Of a DNA stretch of 64,000 bases, positions 12,487 through 45,916 are shown piece by piece. Positions within the stretch are counted from its first letter, which is position 1; every line of letters begins with the position of its first letter. Source of the DNA: Anaerovorax odorimutans (GTDB taxonomy: Bacteria; Bacillota; Clostridia; Peptostreptococcales; JAAYPU01); NCBI GenBank assembly GCA_016841185.1, contig JAENZQ010000001.1, forward strand, positions 74,364 through 138,363, read 5' to 3'. The notes beneath the pieces are model-generated. The model worked only from the letters and a program-made list of their open reading frames with translations, did not search any database and was not told the origin of the DNA. The translations under genes were made by a program, and so were the position numbers.

Positions 12487-13488
12487 TTATACAGTTTTTT
12501 TAGTAGTCTTTCTAACGATCAAATCAGGTTCAAGGGTTATTCTTTTAATGATTCTATTTTCTTTTGCTCTTATCTCATCCACCAAGGTCTCTAAAACGAT
12601 TTTCCCGAGGGCATATTTGGGTTGGTGAATGGTTGTTAACTGTATCTGGGGAAGTCTTGCATAGGAAATATTATCAAATCCGATAACCCCAAGTTCGTCC
12701 GGAATTTTTATACCTAATTCGTTTGCACATTGTAAAACACCAAGGGCAATAATATCGTTTCCGGCAAAAATTGCATCTACTTTGTTCCTGCTGTTAAACA
12801 ATTTTCTTGCCAGTTCATATCCGCTGGACATTCCAAAGTTTCCAAAAAATACGCTGAAATTTTCCGGATCTTTATGACGCTCCTTAAAAGCTCTCTGGAA
12901 GCCTTCCAGCCTCTGCCGATTTGAATAAGATTCCTTCTTTCCTCCTATAAAAGCAATATTTTTATAGCCGCAATCCAGAAGATGTATAGCCGCCATATAC
13001 CCGCCTTTCTCATTATCAACTTCTATGTAGCTGCACTTGCTGTTGGTGGGCCAGCTTTCAAGCAAAATATACGGAACCTTTATGTCTTCGAAGCGTTCAT
13101 TTTTTTTATCTTTTGAGGATTTAAGAATAATACCGTCCACCCTTTTTTCCTGAAGTGTCTTTATATATTCCTTCTCTTTTTTTACCTCCCATCCGGTGAC
13201 GCAAAGAAGAATATCGTATCCAAAGTTATTTGCCGTTTCCATTATGCCTTTTGTTATTTCCGCAAAAAAAGGATTCAGTATATCCGGAATAATAACACCT
13301 AAGGTGTTGGATATCTTATTGACAAGTCCTCTGGCAAGTGAATTCGGCCGATAGCCCATTCTTTCAGCTGTTGCAAGTATTCTTTTTTTAGTTTTTTCAC
13401 TTACACCCGGCTTCTCATTAAGGGCACGGGAAACTGCCGAATAGGAAACATTCAATTCTTTTGCTATGTCTTTTATTGTAACAGTCAT
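12487..13488 (-). CDS. LacI-family transcriptional regulator heading the iolD operon
   Basis: A 333-residue LacI/GalR protein. The helix-turn-helix is TIKDIAKELNVSYSAVSRAL, followed by the hinge region YRPNSLARGL and an effector domain with GVIIPDILNPFFAEITKGI, AGNDIIALG and GVIGFDNISYARL. Its own promoter carries a perfect GCAAACGTTTGC palindrome between the -35 and -10 boxes, so self-repression is likely. The same palindrome family at the transporter and iolN promoters makes this the best candidate for the island's master repressor. It differs from the second LacI protein at 7563-8618 over most of its length. Confidence 0.88.
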   Translation of the reverse strand: MTVTIKDIAKELNVSYSAVSRALNEKPGVSEKTKKRILATAERMGYRPNSLARGLVNKISNTLGVIIPDILNPFFAEITKGIMETANNFGYDILLCVTGWEVKKEKEYIKTLQEKRVDGIILKSSKDKKNERFEDIKVPYILLESWPTNSKCSYIEVDNEKGGYMAAIHLLDCGYKNIAFIGGKKESYSNRQRLEGFQRAFKERHKDPENFSVFFGNFGMSSGYELARKLFNSRNKVDAIFAGNDIIALGVLQCANELGIKIPDELGVIGFDNISYARLPQIQLTTIHQPKYALGKIVLETLVDEIRAKENRIIKRITLEPDLIVRKTTKKTV

Positions 13489-13518
13489 TTCATCAGCTCC
13501 AAAAGATATAATAACATC

Positions 13519-13547
13519 ATTATAGCAAACGTTTGCGTTTGTGTAAA
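13519..13547 (-). promoter_or_regulatory. Promoter of lacI-iolD-iolE-iolG-lacI
   Basis: On the minus strand this is TTTACA (13547-13542), a 17-bp spacer, then TATAAT (13524-13519). The spacer contains the operator. The promoter region is also bracketed by a perfect 10-bp inverted repeat, ATAACATCAT at 13511-13520 and ATGATGTTAT at 13547-13556. Confidence 0.8.
13525..13536. promoter_or_regulatory. LacI-family operator (lacI-iolD promoter)
   Basis: GCAAACGTTTGC is a perfect 12-bp palindrome in the promoter spacer. It is the best copy of the motif also seen at 1164-1175 and 1478-1487. Confidence 0.75.
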
Positions 13548-13580
13548 TGATGTTATTAAATACTTTTTATATTTTATTTA

Positions 13581-15335
13581 TTAAAATACGGATGTTCTTC
13601 CGCTGTAAACCAGTCCTCTCAATGTATCCATGGTAATAAGCATACCGTCGTTAAGTTTCTCCGTGGCATTCTCCGCACCAACAATTGTTGGCTTATTTAA
13701 CGTAATCCCAACGATTGCGGCATGAGATGTCAATCCACCCTCTTCAGTAATAACACCGGAAGCTCTTTCCATATAAGCCACCATGTCCTTATCGGTAGAA
13801 GTCGTGACCAATATATTTCCATCTGTAAATTTCATCTCAGCCTCTTCCGCATTCAATGCAACACATACTCTGCCGACAGCAGAAGATACGCCCATGCTTG
13901 TACCACGAAGAAGTATCTGACTTACTATATGAACTTTCATCATATTGGTAGTCCCTGCAACGCCTACGGGAACGCCGGCAGTGATCACCACAAGATCGCC
14001 GCACCGGATATATCCTTTCTCCAGTGATTTTTCTATGGATTTTTCAAAAATCTCTTCCGTATCCTTTCCTTCTTCAATGACAATGACGGCTGTTCCCCAA
14101 ACAAGAGCCATCTTCCTTGCCACTTTTGGATTAGATGTAGAGACAATAATAGGTGCTTTAGGCCGAAACTTTGAAACCATCATGGAAGTATACCCGGATG
14201 CAGTAGCCGTCAATATAGCGGCAGCTCCCAGGTCCTGAGCACTTGTACAGGTGGCATGGCTGATAGCATCCGTAATGGTTTTATCTCTGCCCACACCTTT
14301 TTCCCTTAGAATCGCTCTGTAATCCAGTGCATCTTCAGCCTTCAGTGCAATATTGGCCATGGTTTTAACGGATTCCAAAGGGTACTTTCCGGCAGCTGTT
14401 TCACCGGACAGCATAACAGCATCTGTTCCGTCAATAATAGCGTTTGCCACATCCGTTACTTCCGCTCTCGTGGGCCTTGGGTTTCTCATCATGGAGTCCA
14501 ACATCTGTGTAGCTGTAATAACAGGCTTGCCAAAAGAATTACATTCTTTAATGATCCTTTTTTGGATAATGGGAATCTCTTCCGGCTGAATTTCTACTCC
14601 AAGATCTCCTCTTGCCACCATTACACCATCTGAAACATTGATGATTTCACTGACATTATCAACGCCTTCCTGGTTCTCAATCTTTGCGATGATACCAATA
14701 TCCAATATACCGTTATCCTCAAGAAGTTTTCTGATTTCCAATACATCGGATACTTTCCTTACAAATGAAGCAGCAATAAAATCTATATCATTTCTGATTC
14801 CAAATAAAATATCTTCTTTATCTTTATCCGTAATGGCCGGAAGGTTTATTTTTACGCCAGGAATATTGATGCCTTTATTATTCTTCACTGTGCCGGCATT
14901 CATAACTCGGCATCTGATATCCGTTCCTTCAACCTCCTCCACGGTCAATTCAATCAAACCATCGTCTATGAGTATTTTATCTCCGGGTCGCACATCATTT
15001 GCCATTTCCTTATAAGATACACTGCAAATTTTGTTATTCCCAACAACTTCTCTCACGGTTAAAGTAAACGGGTTTCCCTGGGTCAATTCAATTTCCTCTT
15101 TCTCAAATCTTCCTGTCCTGATTTCAGGTCCTTTCGTATCCAATAAAATTGCTACAGGAACTTTTAGTTCTTCCCTGATCTCTTTAATCAAATCAATTCT
15201 TCTTTGGTGTTCTTCATGAGATCCGTGGGAAAAATTAAGTCTCGCAACATTCATGCCTATTTTTATCATTTCCGTTAAAGTCGACCGGTCTTCACTTGCC
15301 GGGCCAATGGTACAGACGATTTTAGTTTTTTTCAT
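13581..15335 (-). CDS. pyk: Pyruvate kinase
   Basis: A 584-residue pyruvate kinase, converting PEP and ADP to pyruvate and ATP at the end of glycolysis. The start KTKIVCTIGPAS, NFSHGSHEEH, VARGDLGVEI and ITATQMLDSM are standard active-site blocks. It is about 110 residues longer than the minimal enzyme: the last ~100 residues form a PEP-utiliser-like phosphohistidine domain with GLTSHAAIVG, as in Bacillus and many Clostridia, whose role is uncertain. It follows pfkA by 18 bp, so the two irreversible glycolytic steps are coexpressed. A GGAGG ribosome site precedes the ATG. Confidence 0.97.
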   Translation of the reverse strand: MKKTKIVCTIGPASEDRSTLTEMIKIGMNVARLNFSHGSHEEHQRRIDLIKEIREELKVPVAILLDTKGPEIRTGRFEKEEIELTQGNPFTLTVREVVGNNKICSVSYKEMANDVRPGDKILIDDGLIELTVEEVEGTDIRCRVMNAGTVKNNKGINIPGVKINLPAITDKDKEDILFGIRNDIDFIAASFVRKVSDVLEIRKLLEDNGILDIGIIAKIENQEGVDNVSEIINVSDGVMVARGDLGVEIQPEEIPIIQKRIIKECNSFGKPVITATQMLDSMMRNPRPTRAEVTDVANAIIDGTDAVMLSGETAAGKYPLESVKTMANIALKAEDALDYRAILREKGVGRDKTITDAISHATCTSAQDLGAAAILTATASGYTSMMVSKFRPKAPIIVSTSNPKVARKMALVWGTAVIVIEEGKDTEEIFEKSIEKSLEKGYIRCGDLVVITAGVPVGVAGTTNMMKVHIVSQILLRGTSMGVSSAVGRVCVALNAEEAEMKFTDGNILVTTSTDKDMVAYMERASGVITEEGGLTSHAAIVGITLNKPTIVGAENATEKLNDGMLITMDTLRGLVYSGRTSVF

Positions 15336-41281: not shown

Positions 41282-41611
41282 TTATCCTTTTTCTCCTGCT
41301 CCCTCTGACTTTGATTCCAGTTCATCGGAGGTTTTCAGAATGTGCGCAAATATTTCTGCCGCAACCTGATAGAGTTCCGGAGGAATCTCCTGCCCCAGTT
41401 CAAGCTGAGACAACAGCCCTGTAGCGGTTTCATCACGATAAACAGGTATTCCGGCCTTGTCAGCTACTTCAATGATACGGTCGGCAACATATCCTGCTCC
41501 GGAAGCAACGATAACCGGAGAAGTATTCTTTTCCTGATCGTAAGAAAGAGCTACGGCATTCTTTCTTTCTTTGCTGTTATAAGAAAATCTTTTATACTTA
41601 TACTCTGACAT
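41282..41611 (-). CDS. FlhB C-terminal-like protein (YlqH type)
   Basis: A 109-residue protein related to the cytoplasmic domain of flagellar/type III export component FlhB, without its membrane part: residues about 18-90 carry AVALSYDQEKNTSPVIVASGAGYVADRI (a divided family block) and AGIPVYRDETATGLLSQLELGQEIP. The autocleavage motif NPTH of true FlhB is replaced by KNTSP. Bacillus YlqH is the known analogue; its function is unclear. Its start overlaps the stop of the FliK-like gene by 14 bp. The ATG at 41611 has GGAGGAG upstream. Confidence 0.82.
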   Translation of the reverse strand: MSEYKYKRFSYNSKERKNAVALSYDQEKNTSPVIVASGAGYVADRIIEVADKAGIPVYRDETATGLLSQLELGQEIPPELYQVAAEIFAHILKTSDELESKSEGAGEKG

Positions 41612-42737
41612 TAATCCCGCTCCTCCTCTCCAGTAGCTTTCCAAACACTTTGCCTAATGCACGGGGACGGTTTAAAGCTATGACTTCCACTCTGCCCGCC
41701 TGCAGTCCTGAGTCCGTTATGGCTTTACCGATAATCGTTTTTAATCCCAAGAAATTTTCGGCTATCAAAGAAGGGCAATAAATCGTTACATTTAATTTTC
41801 TGCCTTCTAATAGAAAATCTGCTTCGAAATGTCCTGTTCCAACAATATCAACGGCCAATAACATTCGAATGCCTTTTCTTCTTTGTCCAGTTATGTTCTC
41901 ATTTCTGCCATCATCAGGATCCACCCACAGCTCTCCAAAAGCAGCGGTATTCCCATACTTGACCGGAAGTACAAAATGCAGCATGGGTGATTTCAGATTC
42001 TGATTCATCAACAAGCCTCTGAGTATTTGTTCACACACAGATTTATGGGTTTTGCTGATAGATATTTCGTCAATATTGGATTCAATAAAAGATAAAATTT
42101 TTTCCAGAACAGCACTCCGGTTTTCTTTTTCCAGTTCGGCACCCTTGTTCCCAAATAGATACGCGTCAAGCTGCCGGGTAAACTCCTTCAATTGCAGCGC
42201 AGTTTGATGTTCATCAAATTTCAGCAGCACCTGTACAAATTGATCAACCAGAAGCTCAAGGCTTTTTACTGAAGGATCCTTTGTCCAACAGGATACGCAG
42301 GCCCTCAGTATTTCCGTCACGCCATTCCGGATCACATCATTATCAGGGTGCTTTAAAAGAATACTTCTCAAAAGGTTAAAAAAATCGTTTTTAAAAAGGG
42401 TTGCTGCTTGATTCTGGTTTTGGATTTCTGAAAATATGGATTCTGGCAGTATCATTAGCCCTGAAAGGCTGTCCTGAGAAGAGAGAGAAGACTGGAACAG
42501 CATTTTTATTGTTCTCGTCAATGATGTGCATTTTTTTAAATTCAATGCACTTTCGGTCCCTTTTTCCGGCTGATGCATGAAATCCGTTTTGCCGGAAAAT
42601 GCTTTTACTAAAGAAGATTGTCTTTTTCCGATGCTTAAAGTTCTTTTTCCCAATAAATCCATAAGATTTTGCCGGGATGCATCCTTAAGTCTTGAAAAAT
42701 TTCCTGTATCGTCAATTTTTAAAAAGAAATCTGACAT
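41598..42737 (-). CDS. Hypothetical protein with FliK-like C-terminal region
   Basis: A 379-residue soluble protein. The first ~240 residues are mostly helical with low similarity to anything I know. The last ~130 residues (FGELWVDPDD, FEADFLLEGRKLNVTIYCPS, LQAGRVEVIALNRP) look like the Flg_hook fold of hook-length protein FliK. It lies directly before the FlhB-C-terminal-like gene, as in the Bacillus ylqG-ylqH pair, suggesting the two work together. No flagellar genes are in the window. Confidence 0.6.
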   Translation of the reverse strand: MSDFFLKIDDTGNFSRLKDASRQNLMDLLGKRTLSIGKRQSSLVKAFSGKTDFMHQPEKGTESALNLKKCTSLTRTIKMLFQSSLSSQDSLSGLMILPESIFSEIQNQNQAATLFKNDFFNLLRSILLKHPDNDVIRNGVTEILRACVSCWTKDPSVKSLELLVDQFVQVLLKFDEHQTALQLKEFTRQLDAYLFGNKGAELEKENRSAVLEKILSFIESNIDEISISKTHKSVCEQILRGLLMNQNLKSPMLHFVLPVKYGNTAAFGELWVDPDDGRNENITGQRRKGIRMLLAVDIVGTGHFEADFLLEGRKLNVTIYCPSLIAENFLGLKTIIGKAITDSGLQAGRVEVIALNRPRALGKVFGKLLERRSGINVRV

Positions 42738-42748
42738 GACCCATTCTC

Positions 42749-43951
42749 CTATTCATGGGCACTTTTGAACCGAGATCCCTCTGAATCCTGCTGATCCAAT
42801 TCTACATTAGCAGTTAAACAGGCTTTATAGAAAGTTTCAATTTCATCTCTGCCCGTATGCTCACTGAGACCGTGCCGAATAAATACTTCAAGACCGTAAT
42901 AGTTAAGGAAATTATCATTGATCTTCCTGATGATATTGCGTACAGCCGTCTGAGCCTGATTATAGGAAGTTTCGGTGAAAATAACGGCGAATACTCCGGG
43001 GTTAATATATGCAGGGATATCCGTATTTCGAATACAGCTGATCATTGAATAAGCCGCATATTTCATATAATCATTATAAATATCCTCCTCTTTGTTATCG
43101 ATTGCTTTTATTTCGAAAATTCCAATACAAAAAGGATTTACATACCTTAAAAACCTATTCTTCTCTTTTTCCAATTCAGCCAGAAATCCTTTTTTGCTCA
43201 AGAGCCCTGTGGTTTCATCTTGCATTAGCTGCATGTCTGCGTATATCTGTGCGGCAGATGCTTTAGTGTTGGAATGATATAGATACTGAAATTTATGAGC
43301 GAGAGCTTTTAGATCACGATACTCTAAAAACACCTTCCATTCTTTATTTTCCATCCCAATCATTTTTGTAAACCTATATTCTGTTACTTTCCCCGTATGC
43401 AGGTTCTTTTCCGATATATTAATGTCAAACTCTAATATTTTTTCACAATTAGCATCTTTGAGGATCGTATGGTCATATGTATTAAAGATTTTAGATTCAA
43501 AGTTTCCGATTGCATACATCTTAGAAACAGCTTCCCGCCACTGTACAAATTCATCGAGACTGATATTTTTTTTATTCCAATCGCTCAGCAAGTGATAAGC
43601 TTTTTCAAATTTTTTTTCTGAAAGAGCTGTCAGATATACATTTAAAACATTTCGTGCTTTTTCATTACCAACAGAGTCGAAGCCTTTTTTCCATTGGTGT
43701 CCATTGACGGATTGTTTGTTCGACCGTTCATTTTTACTAAGCCATAATTTATGATATTCTTTCCTTTTGTCCGGATCTTTTAAAATTTCATATGCCGTAT
43801 TGATTTTTTTTATTTTTTCCTCGGAACTCTCACTCCTGTTGACATCCGGATGGTATTTCTTGCACAGTCTGCGATATGCGCCTTCAATGACTTCCTGCTC
43901 CGCATCATGGTGCACCTGAAGAATGTGGTAATAATCTTCCCATATTTTCAT
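42749..43951 (-). CDS. J-domain protein fused to a degenerate GGDEF-like domain
   Basis: A 400-residue protein. Residues 4-70 are a DnaJ J-domain with His34-Pro35-Asp36 intact, so it should engage a DnaK. Residues about 85-225 form an unassigned region. Residues about 245-385 follow the GGDEF-domain plan (DETTGLLSKKGFLAELEKEK; FCIGIFEIKAIDN), but the signature loop is INPGVFAVIF, so cyclase activity is unlikely. It lacks the G/F and zinc-finger parts of DnaJ. It heads an operon with the FliK-like and FlhB-like genes and diverges from an EAL-GGDEF gene. The ATG at 43951 has AAGGAA upstream. Confidence 0.75.
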   Translation of the reverse strand: MKIWEDYYHILQVHHDAEQEVIEGAYRRLCKKYHPDVNRSESSEEKIKKINTAYEILKDPDKRKEYHKLWLSKNERSNKQSVNGHQWKKGFDSVGNEKARNVLNVYLTALSEKKFEKAYHLLSDWNKKNISLDEFVQWREAVSKMYAIGNFESKIFNTYDHTILKDANCEKILEFDINISEKNLHTGKVTEYRFTKMIGMENKEWKVFLEYRDLKALAHKFQYLYHSNTKASAAQIYADMQLMQDETTGLLSKKGFLAELEKEKNRFLRYVNPFCIGIFEIKAIDNKEEDIYNDYMKYAAYSMISCIRNTDIPAYINPGVFAVIFTETSYNQAQTAVRNIIRKINDNFLNYYGLEVFIRHGLSEHTGRDEIETFYKACLTANVELDQQDSEGSRFKSAHE

Positions 43952-44146: not shown

Positions 44147-45916
44147 ATGGATACATCGGAATTATTAAATAATATTATCTGTTCAGAAAATATCCAAACC
44201 TTATTCCAGCCTATTGTAAGTTTAAAAACCGGAGATATTCTGGGATATGAAGCATTAAGCAGAGGCCCCCAAAATAGTTCTCTGTATTCTCCCCTTTCTC
44301 TTATTGAAGCAGCCCTTAAGGAAGAAAAACTCTGGGAACTGGAAACTCTATTCAGAAAAAATGCCATCAGGGAAGCACACCGGCTCGGTTTAGATTCTCT
44401 ATTATTCTTAAATGTTGAGCCAAACATCATCCATGATCCCAAATTCCAGGAAGGCTTTACAAAAAATTATATGTCTGATTATCAACTAAAGCCTGAACAA
44501 ATTATTTTTGAAATTACCGAACGTTCTGCTGTTTCTAATTTTGATAATTTTAAAACCATCATTGAACATTATAGAAGCCAGGGGTATCAAATCGCCATTG
44601 ACGATACCGGTGCAGGCTATTCAAATCTTGCAGCTCTGTGCAAAATAAAACCTTATTATATAAAAATAGATATGGAAATTGTCAGAAATATTCACAAGGA
44701 TTCCTTTAAGCAGGCCCTTTTAAATTCATTTGTCATTATGTCAAATCTCACCAATACGAGATTGATTGCCGAAGGAATAGAAAGCTATGAAGAGCTTGTT
44801 ACAATTACTCAACTGGGCATCCACGCTGCACAGGGTTTTCTTATTGGACAACCTTCCGAAGGCCTGAGTTCCATTGACCCCGATATTCTTGAAATCATAA
44901 AGGGGAAAAATTCTTGTAGTTTTTCTACTCCAATTAGTAATAAAAAAAACATAGGTGAAATTTCAGAACCCATTCCTTCTTTTGACGCTTCTGTAAAATG
45001 TGCCGACCTTAAAGATTTTTTTAAGAACAATCATGGGAATATAGAGGGAATTTGTATCTTGGAGAAAGGTGAAGTTGCAGGCTTAATCATGAAAAATGAC
45101 ATCAATGCTATTCTATCCGGACAATACGGCTACTCTCTTTATGCAAAGAAACCGGTCCGGAAGATCATGGACGCTACTTGTTTAACAGTAGATTATTCTA
45201 CACCTATCAATGTTGTAGCGGAATTAGCCATGTCCCGAACACAAGAAAAAATATACGACAATATTATCGTTACCAAAGGGCTGAAATACTGGGGCATAGT
45301 TTCTGTTATAAAGCTCTTGAAACAATTTCTTATGATGGAAAAAAGCACTGCATTGGAACTGAATCCGCTTACAGGGCTGCCCGGAAATACACTGATCAAT
45401 AAAGCTTTGGAGGATGCTATTCAATTAAAAAACCCTATAGTCGTTTTATATATTGATCTGGACAATTTTAAAATCTATAATGATATTTATGGTTTTGAAA
45501 AAGGAGATAATGTTATAAAAATGACCCGGGATGCGATTACTGCCTGCATAAATCAAGATTTTTACCATAAAAGTTTTATAGGACATATCGGCGGCGATGA
45601 CTTCGTTGCCATTATTCAATGTGATTATGAAAGCAGTCTGCACTTATGCAAGCAAATCATAGAATACTTTGATGAAAATGTGCTTGATAATTTTTCAGAA
45701 GAAGATAAGGAAAAAGGATATATGTACGGAAAAGACAGGAATGATATCTTTCGTGAGTTTCCTCTAACCTCAGTTTCCATAGGCGGAATATACGGCATCC
45801 TCAACTGCTTTCAATCTCCCAAAGAACTTGCTATGTATATGAGTGAAGTAAAAAAAAAAGCTAAAAGGATAAAGAAAAGCAGTTATATTATAGAATCTTT
45901 AACTTCACCTCTTTAA
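44147..45916 (+). CDS. Cyclic-di-GMP protein: EAL, CBS pair, GGDEF
   Basis: A 589-residue soluble protein. The EAL phosphodiesterase domain (about 1-255) looks active: Glu35 in YEALSR, LNVEP, EITERS, IDDTGAGYSN, YIKIDMEIV, IAEGIE and QGFLIGQP. A CBS-pair region (about 285-405) may bind a nucleotide. The C-terminal GGDEF domain (about 410-585) begins NPLTGLPGN and carries GHIGGDDF, with Asp for the Glu of GGDEF, so synthase activity is possible but uncertain. There is no membrane segment. It would set c-di-GMP levels in response to a ligand at the CBS pair. It diverges from the J-domain/GGDEF-like gene. Confidence 0.9.
   Translation: MDTSELLNNIICSENIQTLFQPIVSLKTGDILGYEALSRGPQNSSLYSPLSLIEAALKEEKLWELETLFRKNAIREAHRLGLDSLLFLNVEPNIIHDPKFQEGFTKNYMSDYQLKPEQIIFEITERSAVSNFDNFKTIIEHYRSQGYQIAIDDTGAGYSNLAALCKIKPYYIKIDMEIVRNIHKDSFKQALLNSFVIMSNLTNTRLIAEGIESYEELVTITQLGIHAAQGFLIGQPSEGLSSIDPDILEIIKGKNSCSFSTPISNKKNIGEISEPIPSFDASVKCADLKDFFKNNHGNIEGICILEKGEVAGLIMKNDINAILSGQYGYSLYAKKPVRKIMDATCLTVDYSTPINVVAELAMSRTQEKIYDNIIVTKGLKYWGIVSVIKLLKQFLMMEKSTALELNPLTGLPGNTLINKALEDAIQLKNPIVVLYIDLDNFKIYNDIYGFEKGDNVIKMTRDAITACINQDFYHKSFIGHIGGDDFVAIIQCDYESSLHLCKQIIEYFDENVLDNFSEEDKEKGYMYGKDRNDIFREFPLTSVSIGGIYGILNCFQSPKELAMYMSEVKKKAKRIKKSSYIIESLTSPL

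Follow-up and report, generated by a model that had tools for sequence, protein, structure and literature searches.

PopA and SgmT are degenerate GGDEF proteins that serve as c-di-GMP receptors, and both bind the nucleotide through the I-site. We know of no J-domain in either of them, nor in PelD. The latter is likewise a degenerate GGDEF receptor that binds c-di-GMP through its I-site (PMC7288161). Joining a c-di-GMP-type domain to an Hsp70 component has a precedent in CsdK1 and CsdK2 of Myxococcus xanthus, which are PilZ-DnaK chaperones (PMC10313047), and DnaK/DnaJ-PilZ proteins have been noted in Myxococcus as well (PMC8316039). Many forms of c-di-GMP receptor are known, but our search of the open-access literature found no report of one that feeds the Hsp70 system via a J-domain, nor of a J-domain/GGDEF protein.

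The gene described here encodes such a protein, with a J-domain, a probably NTF2-like middle part and a degenerate GGDEF domain. It lies in a window of 64,000 nt from the Anaerovorax odorimutans contig JAENZQ010000001.1, and all positions below are those of this window unless a locus is named (Table 1). Like PelD, PopA and SgmT, the J-protein has the GGDEF fold, has lost the signature and has kept RxxD; unlike them, its output would be the DnaK system. It shares with CsdK1/CsdK2 and the DnaK/DnaJ-PilZ proteins the fusion of a c-di-GMP-type domain to a component of the Hsp70 system. However, CsdK1 and CsdK2 combine PilZ with DnaK itself and are linked to chromosome organisation and cell death, whereas our protein combines GGDEF with a J-domain and is linked to flagella. 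DnaJ and CbpA have the HPD-containing J-domain in common with it, but they differ in that the J-protein carries the NTF2-like and GGDEF parts and gives no match to DnaJ_C. Since the J-domain is intact, the GGDEF fold lacks its signature, the I-site is invariant and the genomic link to motility genes is strong, we suppose that the protein could be a c-di-GMP-controlled, DnaK-recruiting co-chaperone of the flagellar/chemosensory machinery, a reading to which we give about an even chance.

Table 1. Features of the J-protein gene and of the two genes downstream of it (window positions).
Feature	Position	Strand	Basis
J-protein gene, 400 aa (J-domain, NTF2-like middle, degenerate GGDEF domain)	42749..43951	-	
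J-domain, residues 5-68	43748..43939	-	PF00226, 8.9e-22 (Pfam)
HPD, residues 34-36	43852..43844	-	intact in the window J-protein
Middle part, residues about 88-208, probably NTF2-like	43328..43690	-	weak MecA_N match
Degenerate GGDEF domain, residues 236-384	42800..43246	-	model, fold and profile matches
R266 codon, equivalent of PleD R313 (I-site partner arginine)	43154..43156	-	profile-to-PleD register
RxxD I-site motif, R308-N-T-D311	43019..43030	-	alignment with DgcR R206/D209
NPGVF, residues 317-321, replacing the GGDEF signature	42989..43003	-	sequence
FliK-like gene, 379 aa	41598..42737	-	position beside the FlhB-like gene in other genomes, and low-confidence fold model
Stand-alone FlhB C-terminal-domain protein, 109 aa	41282..41611	-	PF01312

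The original prediction of an intact HPD J-domain joined to a signature-less GGDEF-like domain is borne out by both motifs. Residues 4-68 are matched by solved DnaJ chains (4.3e-17), residues 4-76 are 53% identical to another J-protein of the same genome, and the PF00226 J-domain is present in 22/22 family members. The assignment of the middle part is more tentative. MecA_N, an NTF2-like Pfam family, matches the window protein at 1.3e-3, which is below the cut-off, and weakly matches five of the 22 members (best 3.7e-5); the corresponding part of the AlphaFold2 model is predicted to consist of helices followed by four strands. A group of phage proteins of unknown function, phrog_20642, matches residues 97-253 (43663-43193, minus strand; 1.2e-8), a stretch that runs from the middle part into the beginning of the GGDEF domain. 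A plasmid origin was considered and rejected, the non-J part being without a plasmid match. A chance or mis-called gene is ruled out by the families, the conservation and the neighbours.

Pfam GGDEF scores only 0.009 on the window protein, below the cut-off. The fold itself is predicted by structural modelling. The AlphaFold2 model, built on a 22-member alignment, has a pLDDT of 84.6, and the helix/strand order of its C-terminal third is that of GGDEF. Residues 236-384 of the model match solved GGDEF domains, PleD, WspR and DgcR among them, with Z of about 17-19, and the GGDEF part fills the match list of the structure comparison. A sequence search of the PDB with the family profile minus the J-domain likewise retrieves GGDEF chains (best E 2.7e-20). 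A GGDEF fold had been placed in residues 245-385 on first inspection, and the modelled domain with Z of about 19 agrees with that placement.

The family scan was seeded with two relatives, and relatives covering both the middle part and the GGDEF domain were counted. Most of the family falls within a part of a single clostridial order, and it is rare elsewhere: it was found in 24 of 394 genomes of the order, in four bacterial families (f1, the window's own, f2, f5 and f10), with three more members outside the order among 361 genomes of the class and two more in a phylum-level scan of 378 genomes. Among 28 compared members, the median identity over the non-J part is 24%, and yet HPD, E263, R266, R269, R308 and D311 are invariant in 28/28. 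The GGDEF signature appears in none of the 28, and an active cyclase is rejected on this ground.

The conserved residues fall on both halves of the I-site. R308 and D311 coincide in the PDB alignment with DgcR R206 and D209, the positions mutated in 6zxb and 6zxc, and the family profile scores the DgcR AxxA mutant, which has alanine at both positions (PMC8041772), at 62 versus 74 bits; the PleD counterparts of R308 and D311 are R359 and D362. R266 falls on PleD R313, as judged by the equal spacing of profile positions 154-260 and chain positions 289-395 and by a manual count to the following proline. In PleD, the adjacent domain contributes R313, and R359, D362 and R390 complete the I-site (PMC7288161). 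Residue R390 has no conserved counterpart in the J-protein family, and DgcR likewise does without an equivalent of this residue (PMC8041772). In a control set drawn from the same genome, made up of 12 ordinary GGDEF domains, RxxD occurs in five, the arginine at the R266 position in two and both in one, implying that the GGDEF fold does not require these residues. From this pattern we infer that the J-protein is probably a c-di-GMP receptor of the degenerate-GGDEF I-site class. The initial idea of a chaperone adaptor that reads c-di-GMP has thus gained ground at the sequence level, as the catalytic motif is gone and both I-site halves are invariant throughout the 28 members.

Some variation lies outside these positions. 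Most f10 members (L071-L079) end in a conserved tail, roughly GKYxLSDILxFNxxxKNHF, which may be a docking peptide, and the window protein is without it. In two members (L115, 373-1965, plus strand; L117, 1834-3528, minus strand), long low-complexity inserts separate the J-domain from the middle part, and L117 has a second insert inside the GGDEF domain.

It might be argued that the degenerate domain is instead a module for protein-protein contact or dimerisation, or a binder of another nucleotide such as GTP or (p)ppGpp, and that the J-protein acts in motility as a co-chaperone that is either unregulated or under some other control than c-di-GMP. Some degenerate GGDEF domains do bind GTP (PMC7288161), and the best fold matches include PleD structures with c-di-GMP and with (p)ppGpp. 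However, the invariant residues belong to the I-site and not to the GTP site, and the fold can do without them, so that we regard this alternative as rather unlikely. Retention of both I-site halves would also allow cross-linking to another GGDEF domain. The dead domain could then act as a decoy that pairs with active cyclases through (c-di-GMP)2 cross-links, either restraining them or bringing them to DnaK, and its client would be these cyclases instead of flagellar components. Cyclases are present in the genome, but the neighbours of the family are far more often flagellar/chemotaxis genes and phosphodiesterases than cyclases, and the decoy seems to us highly improbable.

For the co-chaperone reading, a possible mechanism can be outlined, on which our confidence falls a little short of even: c-di-GMP dimers would lock two protomers via their dead GGDEF domains and thereby switch the action of DnaK on a motility protein. 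As in PleD and DgcR, a c-di-GMP dimer would bridge two protomers at their I-sites, and the bridging would alter dimerisation and so the presentation or access of the J-domain. The NTF2-like part would hold a client to which the J-domain recruits DnaK, and this client would presumably be a flagellar or chemosensory protein. The ligand is probably made in the host, because its genome has 13 GGDEF matches above the cut-off, of which 12 show the signature in the control alignment. If the proposal is true, a layer of protein folding or turnover would be added to the c-di-GMP control of clostridial motility, and c-di-GMP would gain a protein-quality-control route to stopping swimming in Clostridia. 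The conserved I-site offers a sharp handle for point mutations, and the gene neighbourhoods point to the process of interest.

The link to motility is seen at the level of both genomes and loci. Of the order's 24 carrier genomes, 23 have FlhA, versus 169 of 394 genomes overall (Fisher 2e-8, relatedness ignored). The single exception, G310, is a 91% complete genome in which fliD and fliS adjoin the J gene (L075). Most flagellated genomes of the order are without the J gene, indicating that it is accessory. A flagellar or chemotaxis gene lies within about 2 kb at 17 of 26 J-protein loci, or 16 of 26 if an FlgN-like gene without a Pfam name is left out, as compared with none of 26 control loci around ordinary J-proteins (DnaJ/CbpA) of the same order (Fisher 2.8e-7); the carrier genomes are related, and the p-values therefore overstate independence. 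At seven of the 26 loci, the stretch covered contains no neighbour of this kind, and some of these are on very short contigs. The Pfam names of the sampled neighbours comprise FliS, FliD, CheR, CheA, CheB, CheD, CheW, MCP and HD-domain proteins. At L116, for example, the J gene closes a run of an HD-domain protein, flagellin, a FlaG-like protein, FliD, FliS and one small gene.

These neighbours also bear on the simplest alternative, namely that the protein is an ordinary J-protein whose extra domain has decayed and which plays no particular part in motility. The GGDEF score below the Pfam cut-off speaks for decay, but decay would not keep E263, R266, R269, R308 and D311 in 28/28 members, and the motility neighbours of 17/26 loci against 0/26 controls are hard to reconcile with it. 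This reading is already disfavoured, and we give it only a very slim chance. Returning to the co-chaperone, genes of HD-GYP or EAL type, i.e. c-di-GMP phosphodiesterase types, often adjoin the J gene.

Other features of the neighbourhoods are recorded here. In the window, a gene for an EAL-CBS-GGDEF protein (44147-45916, plus strand) is divergent from the J gene, and at L006 an EAL-HDOD gene is directly upstream of it; enzymes of c-di-GMP recur near the family. At two f2 loci (L086, 7269-9899, minus strand; L088, 3659-6131, minus strand), a receiver-domain gene and a larger gene immediately precede the J gene; the larger one is a hybrid histidine kinase in L086, and the reading of L088 was by eye only. 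A scan of promoter-like sites and terminators was uninformative (12 sites versus 10.3 expected, and no terminators).

The window was at first described as a region with no flagellar genes. This fits the window ORFs scanned, but the organism is motile: flagellin, full-length FlhB and FlhA are encoded on another contig of the same genome. In addition, flagellar/chemotaxis clusters harbour relatives of the J gene. The arrangement of the two downstream genes was correctly called, the FliK-like gene being 11 bp from the J gene and overlapping the FlhB-C-like gene. The FliK-like ATG lies 11 nt past the J-gene stop, which is overlapped by an AGGAG. The FlhB-C-like gene has its ATG at 41611, downstream of an AGGAGG, and shares 14 nt with the end of the FliK-like gene.

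The two downstream proteins differ in how firmly they can be assigned. The FlhB-C-like protein matches PF01312 at 1.4e-18 (67.7 bits, cut-off 24.4), over profile positions 262-335 of 335, so only the C-terminal part of the profile is covered. Its best-matching NCBIfam model is TIGR00789 flhB_rel, and since 93.4 bits is lower than the cut-off of 117.35, we do not file it there. No other short copy was found in the genome, where the full FlhB and flagellins are also present. For the FliK-like protein, Pfam gives no match, including to Flg_hook (PF02120), a profile search of the PDB gives nothing firm, and hhalign against the genome's own FliK, which is encoded elsewhere (L120, Flg_hook 1.3e-19), also gives nothing firm (probability 1.6%, E 0.03, C-terminal 66 columns). 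The two highest-probability folds for its low-confidence model are PscP T3S4 (0.97, E 0.04) and the FliK C-terminal domain (0.91, E 0.26). The designation FliK-like therefore follows from position and from this low-confidence model, and the fold search only hints at T3S4.

Whether the three genes form one system was examined through their co-occurrence, on which the original prediction had staked itself. The contiguous triple does recur in the two further genomes sampled from the window's family, i.e. in 3/3 genomes of f1, and was found only there. In seven f10 genomes (G128, G159, G274, G275, G279, G287 and G363), about 4-9 kb separate the J gene from the FlhB-like gene, within flagellar/chemotaxis clusters. 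In the remaining carriers, the two genes are not on the same contig or are distant from each other, or no short FlhB-like gene was found. A single dedicated three-gene system is weakly supported: the strict triple is confined to f1, the J family associates with flagellar/chemotaxis genes generally, and co-transcription with the pair looks like a local arrangement over a wider motility link.

The strict form of this idea is a three-protein module in which the J-protein acts on the FliK-like/FlhB-C-like pair and tunes the export-specificity switch via c-di-GMP. In Salmonella, the switch is reportedly flipped when FliK removes the C-terminal domain of FlhB (PMC13344023), and a stand-alone FlhB-C could be a spare or competing lock handled by the chaperone. 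The f1 triple and the 4-9 kb spacing in f10 are in line with such a module. However, the J gene keeps company with chemotaxis or filament genes, away from the pair, in f2, f5 and the majority of other carriers, and the pair occurs in many flagellated genomes without the J gene, making the module unlikely in our view. For the broader co-chaperone reading, the export switch would be one candidate client only, suggested by the tight f1 cluster that the J gene leads. By analogy with the Salmonella ejection of the FlhB C-terminal domain (PMC13344023), it may be a reasonable candidate in the window's family.

The description of the pair as relics of the export-switch machinery finds no support. At loci L121 and L122, which belong to other families of the order, the pair lies between rnhB-like and yraN-like genes and is followed by comM-, dprA-, topA- and codY-like genes and flgB/flgC, the gene names being read from the sequence by eye; it is therefore a conserved pair of flagellated Clostridia and not a relic, and the organism of the window is motile. 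A remnant of a lost flagellum is likewise rejected, as the genome encodes flagellin, FlhA and a full FlhB. We take the place between rnhB and yraN to be that of ylqG/ylqH in Bacillus subtilis, and the pair is presumably of the YlqG/YlqH type of Firmicutes. A comparable flhX-fliK pair is found in Campylobacterota (PMC9321776). YlqG/YlqH and flhX-fliK resemble the window pair in having a soluble FlhB-C domain beside a FliK-like gene in a motile genome. The window pair differs from those of L121 and L122 in its location, downstream of the J gene rather than between rnhB and yraN. At L121, the FliK-like gene at this place (13161-14798, minus strand) matches DUF6240 (1.4e-4) and Flg_hook (0.01), both below the cut-off, and DUF6240 may be a FliK-like family.
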